Shown one piece after another: positions 12,745 through 24,687 of a stretch of 52,589 nucleotides of DNA. The stretch is taken from contig JAOPGA020001325.1 in the NCBI GenBank assembly GCA_026419775.2, positions 1 to 52,589 of the forward strand. The letters run 5' to 3'. Origin of the DNA: Acrasis kona (lineage: Eukaryota > Heterolobosea > Eutetramitea > Acrasida > Acrasidae). A program made the translations under genes and the position numbers. The first letter of the stretch is position 1, and each line of letters starts with the position of its first letter. Under the pieces are notes generated by a model that saw only the letters and a list, made by a program, of their open reading frames with translations, searched no databases and had not been told where the DNA came from.

Positions 12745-13068
12745 CCTGTCAACGTTCATCAATGCAGACGAGCAAACGTTTATTATTATTCAAATTGTTT
12801 AGAGTGTTGGACTTGAAGGATATGGATAGAACTCAAACTGGATGAGTGTATGCGCAAAAAAGCCAAATAACATTAATTTGTGAATAAAACCATTATGCAA
12901 TAAATTCCATCCGTGGCAATTCAGTCTGAGCCTTTCCGACTTATCCCTCTTGATAACTTTCTTTGATGTGAATGCAACGGAATTTCCCGATCTGATTATA
13001 GTTAGGAGAGCTTCTTAAGGTTAGTTTCCTCGTTGTAACAGTCTAAAAACTTCCGAAAACACGTCTTT
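12745..13068. other. Intergenic region upstream of the reverse-transcriptase gene
   Basis: No ORF or RNA gene is recognised. It probably contains the 5' leader and promoter of the downstream rvt-like gene. Confidence 0.35.
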
Positions 13069-15678
13069 GTGTGGATGACGTTCCGAGAACTTCAACACTT
13101 CGTTCCGAATACCTATAAAAGAATTCGTGTCAACAGAACCCAACAACAAAAAATGAAAACAATATCACAACAAGTGCTCTCAAAAGCAACAGTTGCAAAG
13201 TTGGAAGAAATTAAAAAACAAAGGGAGTTCTTGGAAAAACATTACGATGACGTGCTGTTAAACGCTGATAAGCAAAGTACCAAAGCAAACGAACTTAGCG
13301 TACTCCACGAAGGAATCAAGAAAGTGAAGGACCACCACAAACACTTTCGTGAAATAGACCACGTTGAGCGTCAAATGAAACTGCCATCCTTTTACGGCGA
13401 TGACGGACTATCCAGATGGACCACAAAGTTAAGAAACGAAATAAAGAATGGTAGAAGAAGACAATTCCAAACAAATTTGTTTTGCAGTGTATTAGAAGAG
13501 TGGTTAAAAAACACAACTGAAGAGAGCTCATGGGTTGACGTATCAAACGACAAAGTTGTCAAGGGAAGCAACTCCAAGTTGACCGAGCTTATTGACGGAG
13601 CATTTGCAAAAGTGAAAAAGAGTTACAAAGAAAGCACCAAAACCGCCATCAACAAAATATTCATCGACTATGAACTACCAACATATCTCAATCCCCCCAC
13701 CGATCTTCTAGGCAAGGTATCCAAACAAGAGACCGAGGCTGCCATCAAGAACATCATCACCAAGGGCCTCATCACCAACGCCGCCACTTCGCAAGAGTTA
13801 AAAACTTTGTGCGACGACGATGTAACCATTGGAGAATTATCAGATCTCTTGAGCATCAAACTCCAAGACATTCACAATTGGGACTGGAAACTAGATGGCG
13901 ACGCCCCACCAACGTTCCATTTCGAAAAATTCTCGAATGGGAAGGTGAGGTCTTTTGTCGATGCCGAGTACATGGATATTTTGTTTTTGCAAATCATTGG
14001 AACTCGTATTGGTGTTAATATAAAAAGGAGCCTGAGCAGTCTCATCAACGTATGCGCGGGAACGAGTCTTTATCGCAGAGCCATCACCGGTAAATTCTTA
14101 ACCCTATTACCAGAAAGTGTTTGCAAGGTCGAAACCGACATGTATCAGAGAACAGAGAGAGAAGAGGAGAGTGCGTCAGAAGAGGCCTCTGAGAACTCTA
14201 ATGATATCGACGTCATGGCAAAGACTGATGTTCTGGAAGGCGTTACTAGTCATTTGGGACATGCTAGAGCAAAGAGTCCCACGGAGGGTATGGTAGTGCT
14301 GTTCACCGACATTCATGACTTTAGTAACAGCTTGCCACACTCCACCATCCTTGCAGTCATGGATGCATTTGGTTATGGTGCTTATCTGAACTTCTTTGAA
14401 AAGTTCTTAAGGGTAAAAATAAAATATAATGGACGCGACGGTGTTGTTACGAAGGGAACGCCCCTACGATACGCACTGAGCGATGTCTTTTGTGAATGCG
14501 TCATGTTTGTTTTAGATTATCAAATGAACAAGTTCTCTAATTCGACAAGCGTGAAGGAAACTAATTCTTTAGAGCTGTTTAGATGTTGTGACGATACTTA
14601 CATGCTATCCAAATCATCTAAAGTTATTTATCAAGCCTTTGAGCTTTACTCATCCACTCTATCTTTGCTCGGGATGAAATTGAATCACAAGAAATCTGGC
14701 TACTGTATAGTAGACTTTCCTCGTCATACGTCAGATGTTTACTTTACCTTGTTCAATAATAGAAGCAAAAAGAACCAACTTCAGGACCCACTTCCAAAAC
14801 CTAATATTAATGATAATGACTTGAGAACATTACCGGACAATGATGTCAATTGGGGATTCTTGAAGTTACACAAAGACGGTTATTTTAGAGTCAATCCAGT
14901 TGTGTTTGATGAGTTTAAAAAGAGCATGATTGAAAAAGTCAAATCTGGATCTTCGTTAATGAAGCAAGTGAATGTTTATAACAGTCAGTTAAAGTTATTG
15001 GACATGTATGTTGGTAAGGGAGCTGGCATTAATGATGCACTCTACAAGCAATCAGTATTGAACGCTTACGAGGACATTCACGCACGCTTTGGCAACGAAA
15101 GTTCTCTAGAGTACTTTATAAGAGTCATCAAGGAAAAATTCTTTGAAAAATCAGAGAAGGTTGATGTGATGGAGGCGTGGGTGTATTGGCCAGTTACTGC
15201 AGGTGGATTGGGACTTACTCATGCGTTGATAGAACCATTTGTTCGCACTCATAACATGGGTCCGGACTATTACTTGATAGTATCATCCGTGCCAAAAGCC
15301 TGGAGCCCCATTCATAAACGCCACATGATTGTTAATGAGATTAAAGCAAAGACTGGAGGGAGCAATGACCAGAATATGATAAAATGGACAGCGGAAGAGG
15401 AGGCGGAAAGGTCTTGGACATATAAGTTCGAATTTCAAGTGGGTACTACAAAACCTGATGTTGAACCTCCTCGTACTGAAGAATTTGATAAATTGGTCGC
15501 CATGTTCTGCAGCAGAGGAAGTGAGATGAGACAGTCCAGACAGAGCAACTTGAGCACGTACTGGAAGTGGATTGTTTTTAATTACTCTGATCAGGTGTTG
15601 AGTACTTTTGGAAGCTTGGAGTTTGCGTCAGCTGGTTCTATTCCGATCAATCTCATTTTGAGCACAAAGAAGGGATAA
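13069..15678 (+). CDS. Cellular reverse-transcriptase-related protein (rvt-like)
   Basis: An 869-aa intact single-exon protein with a polymerase palm. The order of motifs is: N-terminal coiled-coil region (about residues 35-110), fingers, a long acidic Ser/Glu insertion (about 360-390), motif A FTDIHDFS (D414), motif B GVVTKGTPLRYAL (458-470), motif C CCDDTYM (D508, D509) and motif D LGMKLNHKKSG. All three catalytic Asp residues are present. The C-terminal part includes YWPVTAGGLGL. No integrase, endonuclease, protease, RNase H or terminal repeats flank it, so it does not look like a retroelement. This matches the single-copy rvt genes described in fungi, oomycetes, bdelloids and a few others, proteins with RT activity but unclear function. 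The start could also be an internal ATG (13075 or 13153). Telomerase RT was considered and is less likely. Confidence 0.8.
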   Translation: MWMTFRELQHFVPNTYKRIRVNRTQQQKMKTISQQVLSKATVAKLEEIKKQREFLEKHYDDVLLNADKQSTKANELSVLHEGIKKVKDHHKHFREIDHVERQMKLPSFYGDDGLSRWTTKLRNEIKNGRRRQFQTNLFCSVLEEWLKNTTEESSWVDVSNDKVVKGSNSKLTELIDGAFAKVKKSYKESTKTAINKIFIDYELPTYLNPPTDLLGKVSKQETEAAIKNIITKGLITNAATSQELKTLCDDDVTIGELSDLLSIKLQDIHNWDWKLDGDAPPTFHFEKFSNGKVRSFVDAEYMDILFLQIIGTRIGVNIKRSLSSLINVCAGTSLYRRAITGKFLTLLPESVCKVETDMYQRTEREEESASEEASENSNDIDVMAKTDVLEGVTSHLGHARAKSPTEGMVVLFTDIHDFSNSLPHSTILAVMDAFGYGAYLNFFEKFLRVKIKYNGRDGVVTKGTPLRYALSDVFCECVMFVLDYQMNKFSNSTSVKETNSLELFRCCDDTYMLSKSSKVIYQAFELYSSTLSLLGMKLNHKKSGYCIVDFPRHTSDVYFTLFNNRSKKNQLQDPLPKPNINDNDLRTLPDNDVNWGFLKLHKDGYFRVNPVVFDEFKKSMIEKVKSGSSLMKQVNVYNSQLKLLDMYVGKGAGINDALYKQSVLNAYEDIHARFGNESSLEYFIRVIKEKFFEKSEKVDVMEAWVYWPVTAGGLGLTHALIEPFVRTHNMGPDYYLIVSSVPKAWSPIHKRHMIVNEIKAKTGGSNDQNMIKWTAEEEAERSWTYKFEFQVGTTKPDVEPPRTEEFDKLVAMFCSRGSEMRQSRQSNLSTYWKWIVFNYSDQVLSTFGSLEFASAGSIPINLILSTKKG

Positions 15679-20760: not shown

Positions 20761-23700
20761 TTAAAATTGTCCTGATGACAAAACAATAGGATGCCTTGCA
20801 ATTTGTTCTGAACTGGGTCTTAAATGAGGTATCGGGTGCAACATGCATAAACACAATTCCACAAGAGGAGGAGAGTATGCACTCATCTCTGATCTTAATT
20901 CTGTGAAAAAGTCACGACCCGTCGCATGTGCTACTTGCAAGTCCGCAACAATGTCTCTTCTCATCTTGAGGGTCATCATTTGTATCATGATACATCCAAG
21001 AGAGAATACGTCGGCTTTAAAGTCATAATGTTGACCACCTCTCACCTCTGGAGCCATGTAAATTTGAGTTCCTACGGGTCCCTTATCCTTCATCTCACCT
21101 TCAGTCTTGCTCAGTCCAAAATCACCCAAGAACAATTGCAAAGAATCAACGATGGGAGAGTTCAATCTTGCTCTTGGTTGCACGAAAACATTAGCGGGTT
21201 TCAAATCTCTGTGTATAATGTCTCTTTCATGAATAAAAGCGAGTGCGTCTGCAAGTTGACCGAGGCAGTTTACAATAAAATGTTCTGGCCATTTCTGTTT
21301 TTGATTAAAGATGATTCTATCCAAATCACCAAATGAATAATAAGGCATAGCAAAACAAACACACTTTCCGGACGCATCGTCCTCATGAATAAAGAATTTA
21401 TTGACGCTTACAATATTCGGATGTTTCAAAATACTCAACGTGTTACTTTCGGTCAACGCCATTTCAAGTTCCTGATGAGAGTTCACCTTCATTGTTTTCA
21501 AAACACATTGTTGACCATTGGCATCATCTCTACACAAGAAAATACTCGCCTGACCACCTTGTCCCAATTTTTGTAAAATGGTATATCCTTTGTAACGCTC
21601 CATGAGCGATCTGGATCCATCGTTTCTAGAAATTTCAACATTTTTCATAATTTCGGAAATATTGATGGGCGCCAATGCTTTGGAATTTCCGGTGCCTGGT
21701 TGACTGTTGAATCCAGAATGTAACAAATCTTGAATGGGTTGACCAAACTCGATCATGCTATGATTGGCACCACCCGTACTAATCGCCTTTTCTACTTGCT
21801 TACTGGGCATCAAGATATTTTGATTCGAATTTGTAGATTTCAATCTTGCATTCTTGGGCACTTTTGGCGGCAAATCCAACATGTCATCCAAAACACTAAA
21901 TCCAGAATCAGATTTTTGATTCTTGATTTCCAAATCATCAATCAACAATGTGGGTTTTGAATGTGTTGGCGATCTTGGAGATGTCGCTCTGGAAGATGAT
22001 TTTGGAGAATCGCTCAAGATGGTCAACAAATCGTTCAAATCAGAATCCACTCTCTTGACGGATTGTAAATGTTGAGGAACGGGCGGCAATGGTTTTTTTA
22101 ATTGGGGCGATGAAGATGGAGATGACGATCTCGACGATGTAGATTTTAATTGTGAAATGGGCTTCATGGTGGTGAAGAAATCAAAATCTTGATTTGAATC
22201 ATCCGATGACGATGGAGGCGGAGAAATGTTAATGGCATGTGAAAAATCGTCAATGCTGCTGCTGGAATGTAAGGTGCCGCTGTTGCTTCTTATGAAGTGG
22301 TGTGGCGATATGCTTCCGCTTCCTAACGCTGGATAATTTTTGTAATCTAATCCTGCCGCTTCACATTTGCTGCGAATGATTTGACGATCGAATTTCACAT
22401 TTCCGTCCACGATCAAAGTGTCCAATAACTTGTTTAGTAATTTTGGAAACGTCGAAATGTAGTATTGGATGGAGGAATGTAACGTCTCGATTTGATTCAC
22501 GTTACATGTGACCTGTGTGAAAAATGTGTGATCCCATGGATTGATGGGATCGAAATGATTAATCACATTCGTGCAAATGAAATCGCTGGGTATGAATTGT
22601 GATTGGTTACATTTCTTGATGAGATCCCACGATCCCAATTTACAAATGTGAGCCATGAGCCGATCCAAATCGATTCGATCCTTGTTGAATTCCAAATACT
22701 CTGTTAATTGATCCGGATTGAATGTAGAGTACAAGATGGCCAATTGTGTGAAAATGTTGGATGGTGGATTGGATGTTCCTAACGAGTGTTCCAAGATGGG
22801 TATCAATTTGATCGGATCCGATTCGTAACAATTGGAAATGGATTCCAAATCGTCATTCGTGCGTAACATGTGAACGGCAACATTTTGTGCTCTTTCGAAT
22901 TGTGAATCTTTTAAAAGTGGTTGGAAAAGTGCGGTTGGGTCAATGTCTCTTCGTAAAGCATATTTGACTAGATCCGAATTGTGATGGAAAACAAATGCAT
23001 CAATGATCATGCCATCAACGAGCGATGTTTTTCTTACGGTCGCGTATTCGATTAAATCGTCGATTAAATCGTTGTCCATCGCTAGTTTGATAATGTTGGC
23101 GTCATATTCGGTGGAAATGTCGTCTGGTTGACTGCTGGAAGCGAATTGTATGGCTTGTTGAATTTCCATCTTGACCTGGGGTGAGGCCATCTTTCTTTTT
23201 AGATTTAAAGTGTTGACGTCGGGTACGGAGTGTGATTTATCCAACTCGAATTGATTTAATTCCATTCCTCTCGTCGATAATATTTTATAGTATTGGAACG
23301 GGATCGCACCGTCGAATGTTTCTAATGCGTTGAAAGCTCTTTCTGTGCGTAGGATTCCTCTTGGTGATTCGATCACAAGCTTGAGCGCCTCTCCAACTCT
23401 TTTTTTTGTAATTAGCAAATGATCAAAATGACTCCACCAGAGATCATGTGCGTTGGGTAAGTTCATCCTGACGGCCATGCGTAATGCTACCATTGTGTTT
23501 CCTGTCCTCATTGCGTGGCTGATTGTTGTTTTTGGGTTCGTAAGTACTGATTGGACTTGTCCCGCCTTGTTGATGCAAACGATACCATCTAGTAAACCTC
23601 TCTTTTGGACATCATGGAACAGTTGACCACAAAAAATGTTTTCTTGAGTGATGCGATCTGCAAATAAAGTGATCCCTGTTTCAACATCAATCATGTACAG

Positions 23701-24687
23701 GCCTCCGAATTTACTGGCGATATAAAGTACTCCTATGGATTTGATGTGCTCGACGACTACAGGAAAGTCTTCGTTGCTGTATAGAGCGTAATTGTAGGTT
23801 TTGGTTTGGTCCTTGGTCAAGTTTCTGATGCAAAGTTCACCTGTGGTTCCTGACGTATGGTACGCTGTTGCGAGCATTTGTTCCGGTTCGTCATCATCTA
23901 GAGACAAGAATTCAAAAAAGCATGCTGCGTGGGCTGGTACAGTTTCCGTCTTTTCGTTGTGATGGAACTCTGCTAAACCTTTAATGTCGGTGGCATCTCT
24001 TCCCTTGCTTAATGTTACAATAATGTGTGATTGTCTAGATTTGCTGGTATGGTAGTTGACTATGGTGGCAGTGTTGAATGGAGGTTGGTTGGAACGGGTT
24101 GAACATTGAGTCAAGACGCCGTTTGGCTCATCTTCCCCGACCATCCAGTGATGAACGGCCTTGGGTGAAATTACTGCCAAGTGATCGTCGCTTATCCACT
24201 TCCAGAACAAAGGAAAGTCTTTTTTCATGTCCACGCTACTAATTCTCTTTTTACCGCGAAGGTCGAATACTTGTAAGCCTGTTCCGACTATAAAACGTTA
24301 ATAATGAATACCGGAGTAAGCGCTGGCCAACCTTTTAATCCAATCCATTTTCTATTACTTGGATGCACAATGGCAGATTCAGCTTGTGCATTCGTTTTCG
24401 CGAAAACACGATTGCCATTCACGTCTATAAGCACAAGAGTCCTTTTCGCTGGTTGTATTACTGATGGAGGTGGTGAGGAGGGTTTTTGCTCTCCATTTGG
24501 TTTTTGTGTAGAGTCAGACATTTCTACACTCATGCGAATACAAATTACATCTCCACTCTCCATGGTCACAGTATTAAAAACAATCTCTGATGCTGGCACA
24601 CCATGTTGGGTAATCTAAAGTTTTGACATAGTAATGCTAACAAAATACCTTAAAGTGCTCCCTTAGTACTATAGGTGATGCACTCAT
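20761..24687 (-). CDS. Clathrin-heavy-chain-like / Ser-Thr protein kinase fusion
   Basis: Three exons: 24687-24649, 24614-24332 and 24287-20761; introns of 34 nt (24615-24648) and 44 nt (24288-24331); 1282 aa. The N-terminus (SPIVLREHFKI, VFNTVTMESGDVICIR, KKDFPLFWKWISDDHLAVI) tracks the clathrin heavy chain terminal beta-propeller residue by residue; the linker (ALRMAVRMNLPNAHDL, SPRGILRTE) and first helical repeats follow. A later block (FTQLAILYSTFNPDQLTEYL) matches clathrin repeat 7; the intervening leg repeats and the C-terminal trimerisation region are missing. After a Ser-rich linker (about 760-1005) comes a complete kinase domain (about 1009-1282) with GQGGQA, VLK, HRDLKPAN, DFG and APE. 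The last exon alone spans propeller to kinase in one open frame, so the fusion does not depend on splice choices. Likely role: kinase recruited to adaptor/clathrin-box motifs on vesicles. Confidence 0.9.

Follow-up and report, generated by a model that had tools for sequence, protein, structure and literature searches.

In the heterolobosean Acrasis kona, and in at least one environmental relative, a single gene places the head of a clathrin heavy chain (CHC) in front of a protein kinase, an arrangement which suggests, as read from sequence, a kinase with a built-in address to clathrin coats. The spliced product of the A. kona gene is 1282 amino acids long and runs from a propeller through an alpha-solenoid and a linker into the kinase. 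The gene lies within the stretch of DNA that was analysed (contig JAOPGA020001325.1, positions 1 to 52,589; hereafter the window), and all of its features are on the minus strand. The coordinates given in an earlier note, made from the letters alone, proved exact, and the observation of a three-exon clathrin-kinase gene with GT-AG introns is confirmed. Exon 1 (24649..24687) supplies the start codon and the first 13 residues of a clathrin-like N-terminus and is followed by intron 1 (24615..24648), of 34 nt with GT...AG borders; exon 2 (24332..24614) encodes the first part of the propeller, as placed by aligning the spliced protein to clathrin in the PDB, and precedes intron 2 (24288..24331; 44 nt, phase 1, GT-AG); and exon 3 (20761..24287) carries the remaining propeller, the solenoid, the linker, the kinase and the stop codon TAA. 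With a slash marking the join, the splice junctions read MSASPIVLREHFK/ITQHGV... and ...IGLK/VGTGLQVFD, and the alignment to CHC starts at residue 6. It had been claimed that the 5' exons complete the clathrin N-terminus, and the alignment of the spliced protein agrees: the exon 1 splice (...LREHFK/ITQHGV) aligns to CHC residues 6-44, with the first 43 residues on their own giving a weak match of 13.4 bits. The claimed continuity of the reading frame from propeller to kinase also holds, as exon 3 is open from 24287 to 20761 and ends in its single stop, TAA. Elsewhere in the window an 879-aa frame on the plus strand (13039-15675) matches reverse transcriptase weakly (RVT_1, 26.8 bits, below the cut-off).

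The clathrin part begins with a terminal-domain propeller of clathrin type. In the PDB sequence search the start of exon 3 matches CHC 85-433, and the portion of the propeller encoded there (23542..24287) was delimited by that search, by groove residues and by an AlphaFold model with structure alignment, in which the predicted fold resembles the clathrin terminal domain far more than it does other propellers. Behind it, the alpha-solenoid (22339..23535, exon-3 residues 252-650 from the AlphaFold helices) comprises an H-link, a middle stretch that could not be placed and a proximal-leg repeat. Clathrin_H_link scores 27.4 bits by Pfam against a cut-off of 27.8, and 28.4 bits for the same stretch in the genome scan. 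The proximal-leg repeat (22414..22905) matches CHC 1264-1426 in the PDB search and, by profile comparison, aligns to residues 1267-1457 of the organism's own CHC with E 4.5e-18; the Pfam Clathrin repeat (PF00637) scores 14.8 bits in the fusion, under its cut-off of 29.6, and 38.5 bits, over it, in the relative P0003. This stretch matches the sixth clathrin repeat, whose bounds PMC5742812, quoting a Pfam table, gives as 1274-1419. The seven leg repeats (PF00637) were not found in the fusion, one repeat being recovered by PDB search and profile comparison, and the trimerisation hub is absent, since the profile match stops at residue 1457 of the 1713 in the own CHC and gives way to linker and kinase. 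The earlier view that the distal and proximal leg and the trimerisation domain are missing therefore stands for the hub and most of the leg and needs correction for the one proximal repeat that is kept (CHC 1264-1426), and a fusion lacking the leg entirely was ruled out by the same two comparisons. The view of the protein as a clathrin paralogue without a hub was upheld. As clathrin without a hub should not form a triskelion, assembly as a triskelion arm is not to be expected of this protein, judging from its predicted sequence.

The point at which the leg was shortened can be placed only tentatively, because the placements of the middle stretch are weak or in conflict. Residues of about 460-560 have weak profile matches to both CHC 930-1001 and CHC 485-558, a BLAST stretch of 28% identity is colinear as far as residue 701 of the fusion and residue 662 of the own CHC and overlaps the proximal-leg stretch (570-732/1277-1440), and one structural row lays the fusion model 1-660 on CHC 84-721 with an rmsd of 29.9.

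Relatives of the gene were sought in a protein database with query residues 1-760. Eight proteins were found, among them A. kona's own (P0001), P0002 and P0003, which share 47-48% identity with the query over 83% of its residues at about 650 bits, and five that are CHC-like, at up to 193 bits; a search with the three-row alignment returned 29 proteins, namely the same three fusions and 26 CHC-like proteins at no more than 234 bits. As this search requires shared five-letter words, it may have passed over fusions of greater divergence. Viral and GTDB contigs, each scanned with two peptide patterns, gave 37 and 20 matched stretches respectively, none of them a relative. The architecture that the earlier note had proposed looking for in other protists is found in P0003, an environmental sequence (jgi, contig of 3739 bases) that continues from the propeller through the linker to KNVEISRNDGSRS...QELEMAL in the kinase N-lobe; in the pre-kinase segment and N-lobe it is identical to the A. 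kona fusion at 55 of the 73 columns aligned, and propeller and solenoid are 48% identical. P0002 (lgn, contig of 5304 bases) ends at ...MLK/VCFSTN, immediately before the pre-kinase segment, and its protein letters point to a probable intron at this end. The kinase C-lobe is seen in one species, A. kona, as P0003 reaches the N-lobe and P0002 shows no kinase.

An assembly misjoin, or a pair of neighbouring genes read as one, is scarcely credible and was rejected, since P0003, at 48% identity and in an independent contig, runs from the propeller through a linker into the same kinase N-lobe, the frame across the linker is open in both, and the linkers have motifs in common; the sequences thus argue for one gene. 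The fusion shares 48% identity with its relatives and the own CHC shares 69-83% with P0009 and P0010, and so the fusion gene seems to evolve faster than CHC if P0009 and P0010 come from the relatives' species, which is a guess.

The kinase domain (20785..21585) matches Pkinase with E 1.5e-44 (Pfam), and its motifs are all present in protein numbering: a GQGGQA Gly-loop at 1016, Lys 1038, Glu 1054, HRDLKPAN at 1133, DFG at 1163 and APE at 1186. This full set of catalytic motifs agrees with the earlier description of an active-looking kinase. The AlphaFold model of the region is poor. The best solved relative in the PDB sequence search is NEK2 (93 bits), and a database search with the kinase gave 296 matches among 8000 scored candidates, the top one at 118 bits and 32% identity, with many named NEK2. 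Because only candidates of about 165-525 aa were considered, a full-length fusion could not have appeared; among the 120 matches listed of the 296 there was no detached exon of a relative's kinase within that size range. In a tree of 22 rows (16 of the 120 listed matches, the fusion kinase and five loci of its own genome) the fusion kinase joins the own-genome kinases C137, C263 and C394 (99/93), apart from the NEK2 rows, a placement that is provisional because the rows were chosen by hand. On membership of the NEK family the comparisons diverge: the PDB and database matches favour it, but the tree puts the kinase with those of its own genome. Among 48 PDB sequences at E 1e-18 no name of the NAK/AAK1 or SCY1-like kind occurs, and the tree held no such row. 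The three own-genome kinases (L007 on C137, L004 on C263, L005 on C394) form a family with a GAQA glycine loop, and the C263 kinase ends in a cysteine-rich stretch that by eye resembles a RING finger. Another kinase, L008 on C95, has a long low-complexity N-terminal part with LLSLDDF, close to the LLSFDDF of an ANTH protein (L031); its single clathrin box, against 0.20 expected, is not significant.

Whether the head could still read adaptors was judged from the clathrin-box groove. The key residues of this site are I80, T87, Q89, F91, K96 and K98 (PMC8805674), and at these positions the fusion has I, G, Q, F, K and R, the own CHC L, T, Q, F, R and K, and a stand-alone propeller encoded on contig C213 L, G, Q, F, G and S. 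The fusion is therefore identical to vertebrate CHC at four of six positions, with K98R in addition and T87 replaced by G, and the basic residues K96 and K98, lost in C213, are largely kept. Over the terminal domain, identity to vertebrate CHC is 29% for the fusion, 54.5% for the own CHC and 28% for C213. Retention of four of six residues against a background of 29% is suggestive of a groove that has been mostly kept, and the earlier description of the propeller as adaptor-binding fits the retained Q89, F91 and K96 together with K98R. The head can probably read clathrin boxes, which makes a kinase with a clathrin-type address the simplest role for the protein. At other sites, the arrestin-site Gln 192 is retained by the own CHC and replaced by Glu in each of the three fusion proteins, and the W-box Gln 152 is Thr in both the fusion and the own CHC. 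The clathrin-box site of a fusion protein is seen in one species, as the P0002 and P0003 records start after it.

The linker (21604..22320), a Ser/Pro-rich disordered stretch of about 240 aa delimited by alignment with the relatives and by the AlphaFold model, was searched for strict clathrin boxes, defined as L-phi-x-phi-[DE] after the motif as it appears in PMC11543927, and significance was taken from 5000 shuffles, the boxes of P0002 and P0003 having been spotted by eye before the test. The P0002 linker holds five (LISLE, LLTLD, LLRLD, LLPID, LIEFD; 0.26 expected, p 0.0002) and the P0003 linker four (LLDMD, LLTLD, LLFID, LIEFE; 0.22 expected, p 0.0002), and beyond the linker there is one box in P0002, none in P0003 and one in the A. 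kona fusion. Strict boxes in the A. kona linker itself had to be given up as a feature, as none occurs and the relaxed count is at chance (3 against 2.37 expected); the near-boxes LLTIL (no acidic end) and MIEFG (M for L, no acidic end) sit about where the relatives' boxes align. Boxes in a disordered region, such as AAK1-like clathrin tethering would call for, are present in P0002 and P0003 and absent from the A. kona linker. Common to all three linkers are a PPxP stretch (PPVP in A. kona) and an SGTLH block. DLL occurs twice in the A. kona linker against 0.15 expected (p 0.0098, uncorrected) and was the only standout of 11 patterns tried.

The genome scanned comprises 37.35 Mb in 1021 contigs, and the profile scan places Clathrin_H_link matches at three sites: the fusion gene, C508 and C213. 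The earlier note had raised the question of a separate full-length CHC, and one is present on C508, in a single frame that codes for 1713 aa counted from the ATG and has seven repeats above the cut-off; the idea that the fusion might be the organism's sole clathrin was rejected on this ground. The C213 gene (L021 8027-6613, minus strand) is a terminal domain standing alone, 457 aa in two exons with no leg, and among the 39 places scored in a scan of the genome, no kinase match falls on this contig. In a midpoint-rooted tree of 19 rows (three fusion proteins, C213, the own CHC and 14 of 31 CHC-like proteins) the three fusion proteins group (98/99) and join C213 (100/100), separate from the 15 CHC rows; C213 is flagged there as a long branch, which means that its position may be spurious. 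The kinship agrees with an independent sign, namely that the phase-1 position of intron 2 is common to the fusion and C213; C508 has no intron there. We infer that one CHC duplicate gave rise to both.

Possible partners occur in the same genome. ENTH matches were found at 11 places, and in the four of these loci that were examined there is no strict clathrin box; the ANTH protein carries the box LLSFD (one, against 0.23 expected). A search for clathrin light chain gave no match in this genome and none in the control genomes either. ENTH matches with identical scores lie on the contig pairs C600/C738, C728/C742 and C219/C908, perhaps uncollapsed haplotypes or duplications.

The reading that we set foremost, and hold with about even confidence, is that the fusion is a non-cage clathrin paralogue which carries a kinase to clathrin and adaptor sites and tunes coats by phosphorylation. 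The earlier note had drawn much the same inference, which is supported in part. A CHC duplicate would have lost most of its leg and the trimerisation hub and would have acquired, behind a disordered linker, a kinase with kin in its own genome. At coated sites the product, as a monomer, would dock on clathrin adaptors, clathrin boxes in the linkers of the relatives might additionally bind the heads of real clathrin, and the tethered kinase would phosphorylate adaptors or coat proteins, so that coat assembly or cargo binding is tuned, as AAK1-type kinases do by other means. For the fusion protein itself we infer docking, kinase activity, substrates and oligomeric state. The docking reading draws on the single-frame fusion, the conserved N-lobe, the groove residues, the relatives' boxes, the kinase motifs and the propeller fold, and on a genome that holds a full-length CHC, ENTH matches and an ANTH protein with a box. 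Against it stand the boxless A. kona linker, T87G, Q192E, a groove region that lies outside the P0002 and P0003 records, the absence of the kinase C-lobe from those records, the poor kinase model and the lack of a strict box in the four ENTH frames examined.

The co-occurrence of a box-reading groove and box-bearing linkers in one polypeptide family also admits an adaptor-sensing switch, in which the linker boxes would occupy the protein's own propeller groove and hold the kinase off until adaptor boxes compete. The terminal-domain structures listed in the PDB hold clathrin-box and AAK1L C-terminal peptides, so the domain takes such peptides; but the two halves are seen in different sequences, A. 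kona having the groove without strict boxes and the relatives the boxes without the groove region, and we consider the switch unlikely. A single-chain coat sensor, with a kinase switched on only where clathrin adaptors crowd, is to be doubted to the same degree. Equally improbable, to our mind, is that the clathrin part is now a mere scaffold and the kinase works in a pathway unrelated to clathrin coats. The low identity of the propeller to vertebrate CHC (29%, against 54.5% for the own CHC) and the apparently faster evolution of the fusion than of CHC (48% against 69-83%, with the species origin of P0009 and P0010 guessed) would suit a scaffold, but the groove residues were kept in the fusion while the stand-alone C213 lost K96 and K98, and the P0002 and P0003 linkers contain clathrin boxes. 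Finally, a head with no hub could act as a competitor, masking the boxes of adaptors and so restraining coat assembly, the kinase being its regulator; the fusion does have the head and lack the hub, and the genome has a stand-alone head gene besides, but competition by itself leaves the strongly conserved N-lobe of the kinase unexplained, and this scenario appears very unlikely.

The docking reading can be set beside known systems. The fusion resembles CLTC in its terminal-domain propeller, H-link and one proximal-leg repeat, and differs in that it lacks the hub and most leg repeats and ends in a linker and kinase. AAK1 (in its long form), GAK and SCYL2/CVAK104 are clathrin-associated kinases, and to our knowledge none carries a clathrin propeller. 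By analogy, the fusion would resemble them in that its kinase sits on a flexible chain and meets clathrin, with boxes in the relatives' linkers; unlike them, its kinase groups with those of its own genome in a tree without NAK or SCY1 rows. The PDB lists the clathrin terminal domain bound to the AAK1L C-terminus, so a clathrin-tethered kinase has precedent. A likeness in kind is CLTC-ALK, described in PMC5742812 and PMC6721376 as human somatic tumour fusions with the clathrin heavy chain N-terminal to the kinase; the CLTC partner in CLTC-ALK (C31;A20) has seven clathrin repeats in the table of PMC5742812. CLTC-ALK is somatic and carries a tyrosine kinase; the A. kona gene is germline, its kinase looks like a Ser/Thr kinase, its leg is short and the hub is missing.

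Limited literature searches turned up no account of a natural gene in which a clathrin heavy chain is fused to a kinase. The statement that the design is not known from other lineages fits these and the sequence searches, which were likewise limited; a human somatic fusion similar in kind, CLTC-ALK, has been published. The components are familiar, and so is the probable function; what is new within the searches made is the arrangement, a clathrin head on a kinase. CHC is commonly regarded as a structural protein with a head that serves only to recruit adaptors, and a conserved natural head-kinase gene would show that the clathrin head can be used as an address tag for an enzyme. Phosphorylation is brought to coats by AAK1/GAK-type motifs and SCYL2-type binding, to which the fusion would add a further route, and the gene would be a natural counterpart of the tumour fusion CLTC-ALK. 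A minor observation from the genome scan concerns contig C966, where a stretch (L035 586-693 by match, further by eye) resembles SSU rRNA, at 83% to a conserved 18S piece; it looks degenerate and adjoins sequence with open frames.
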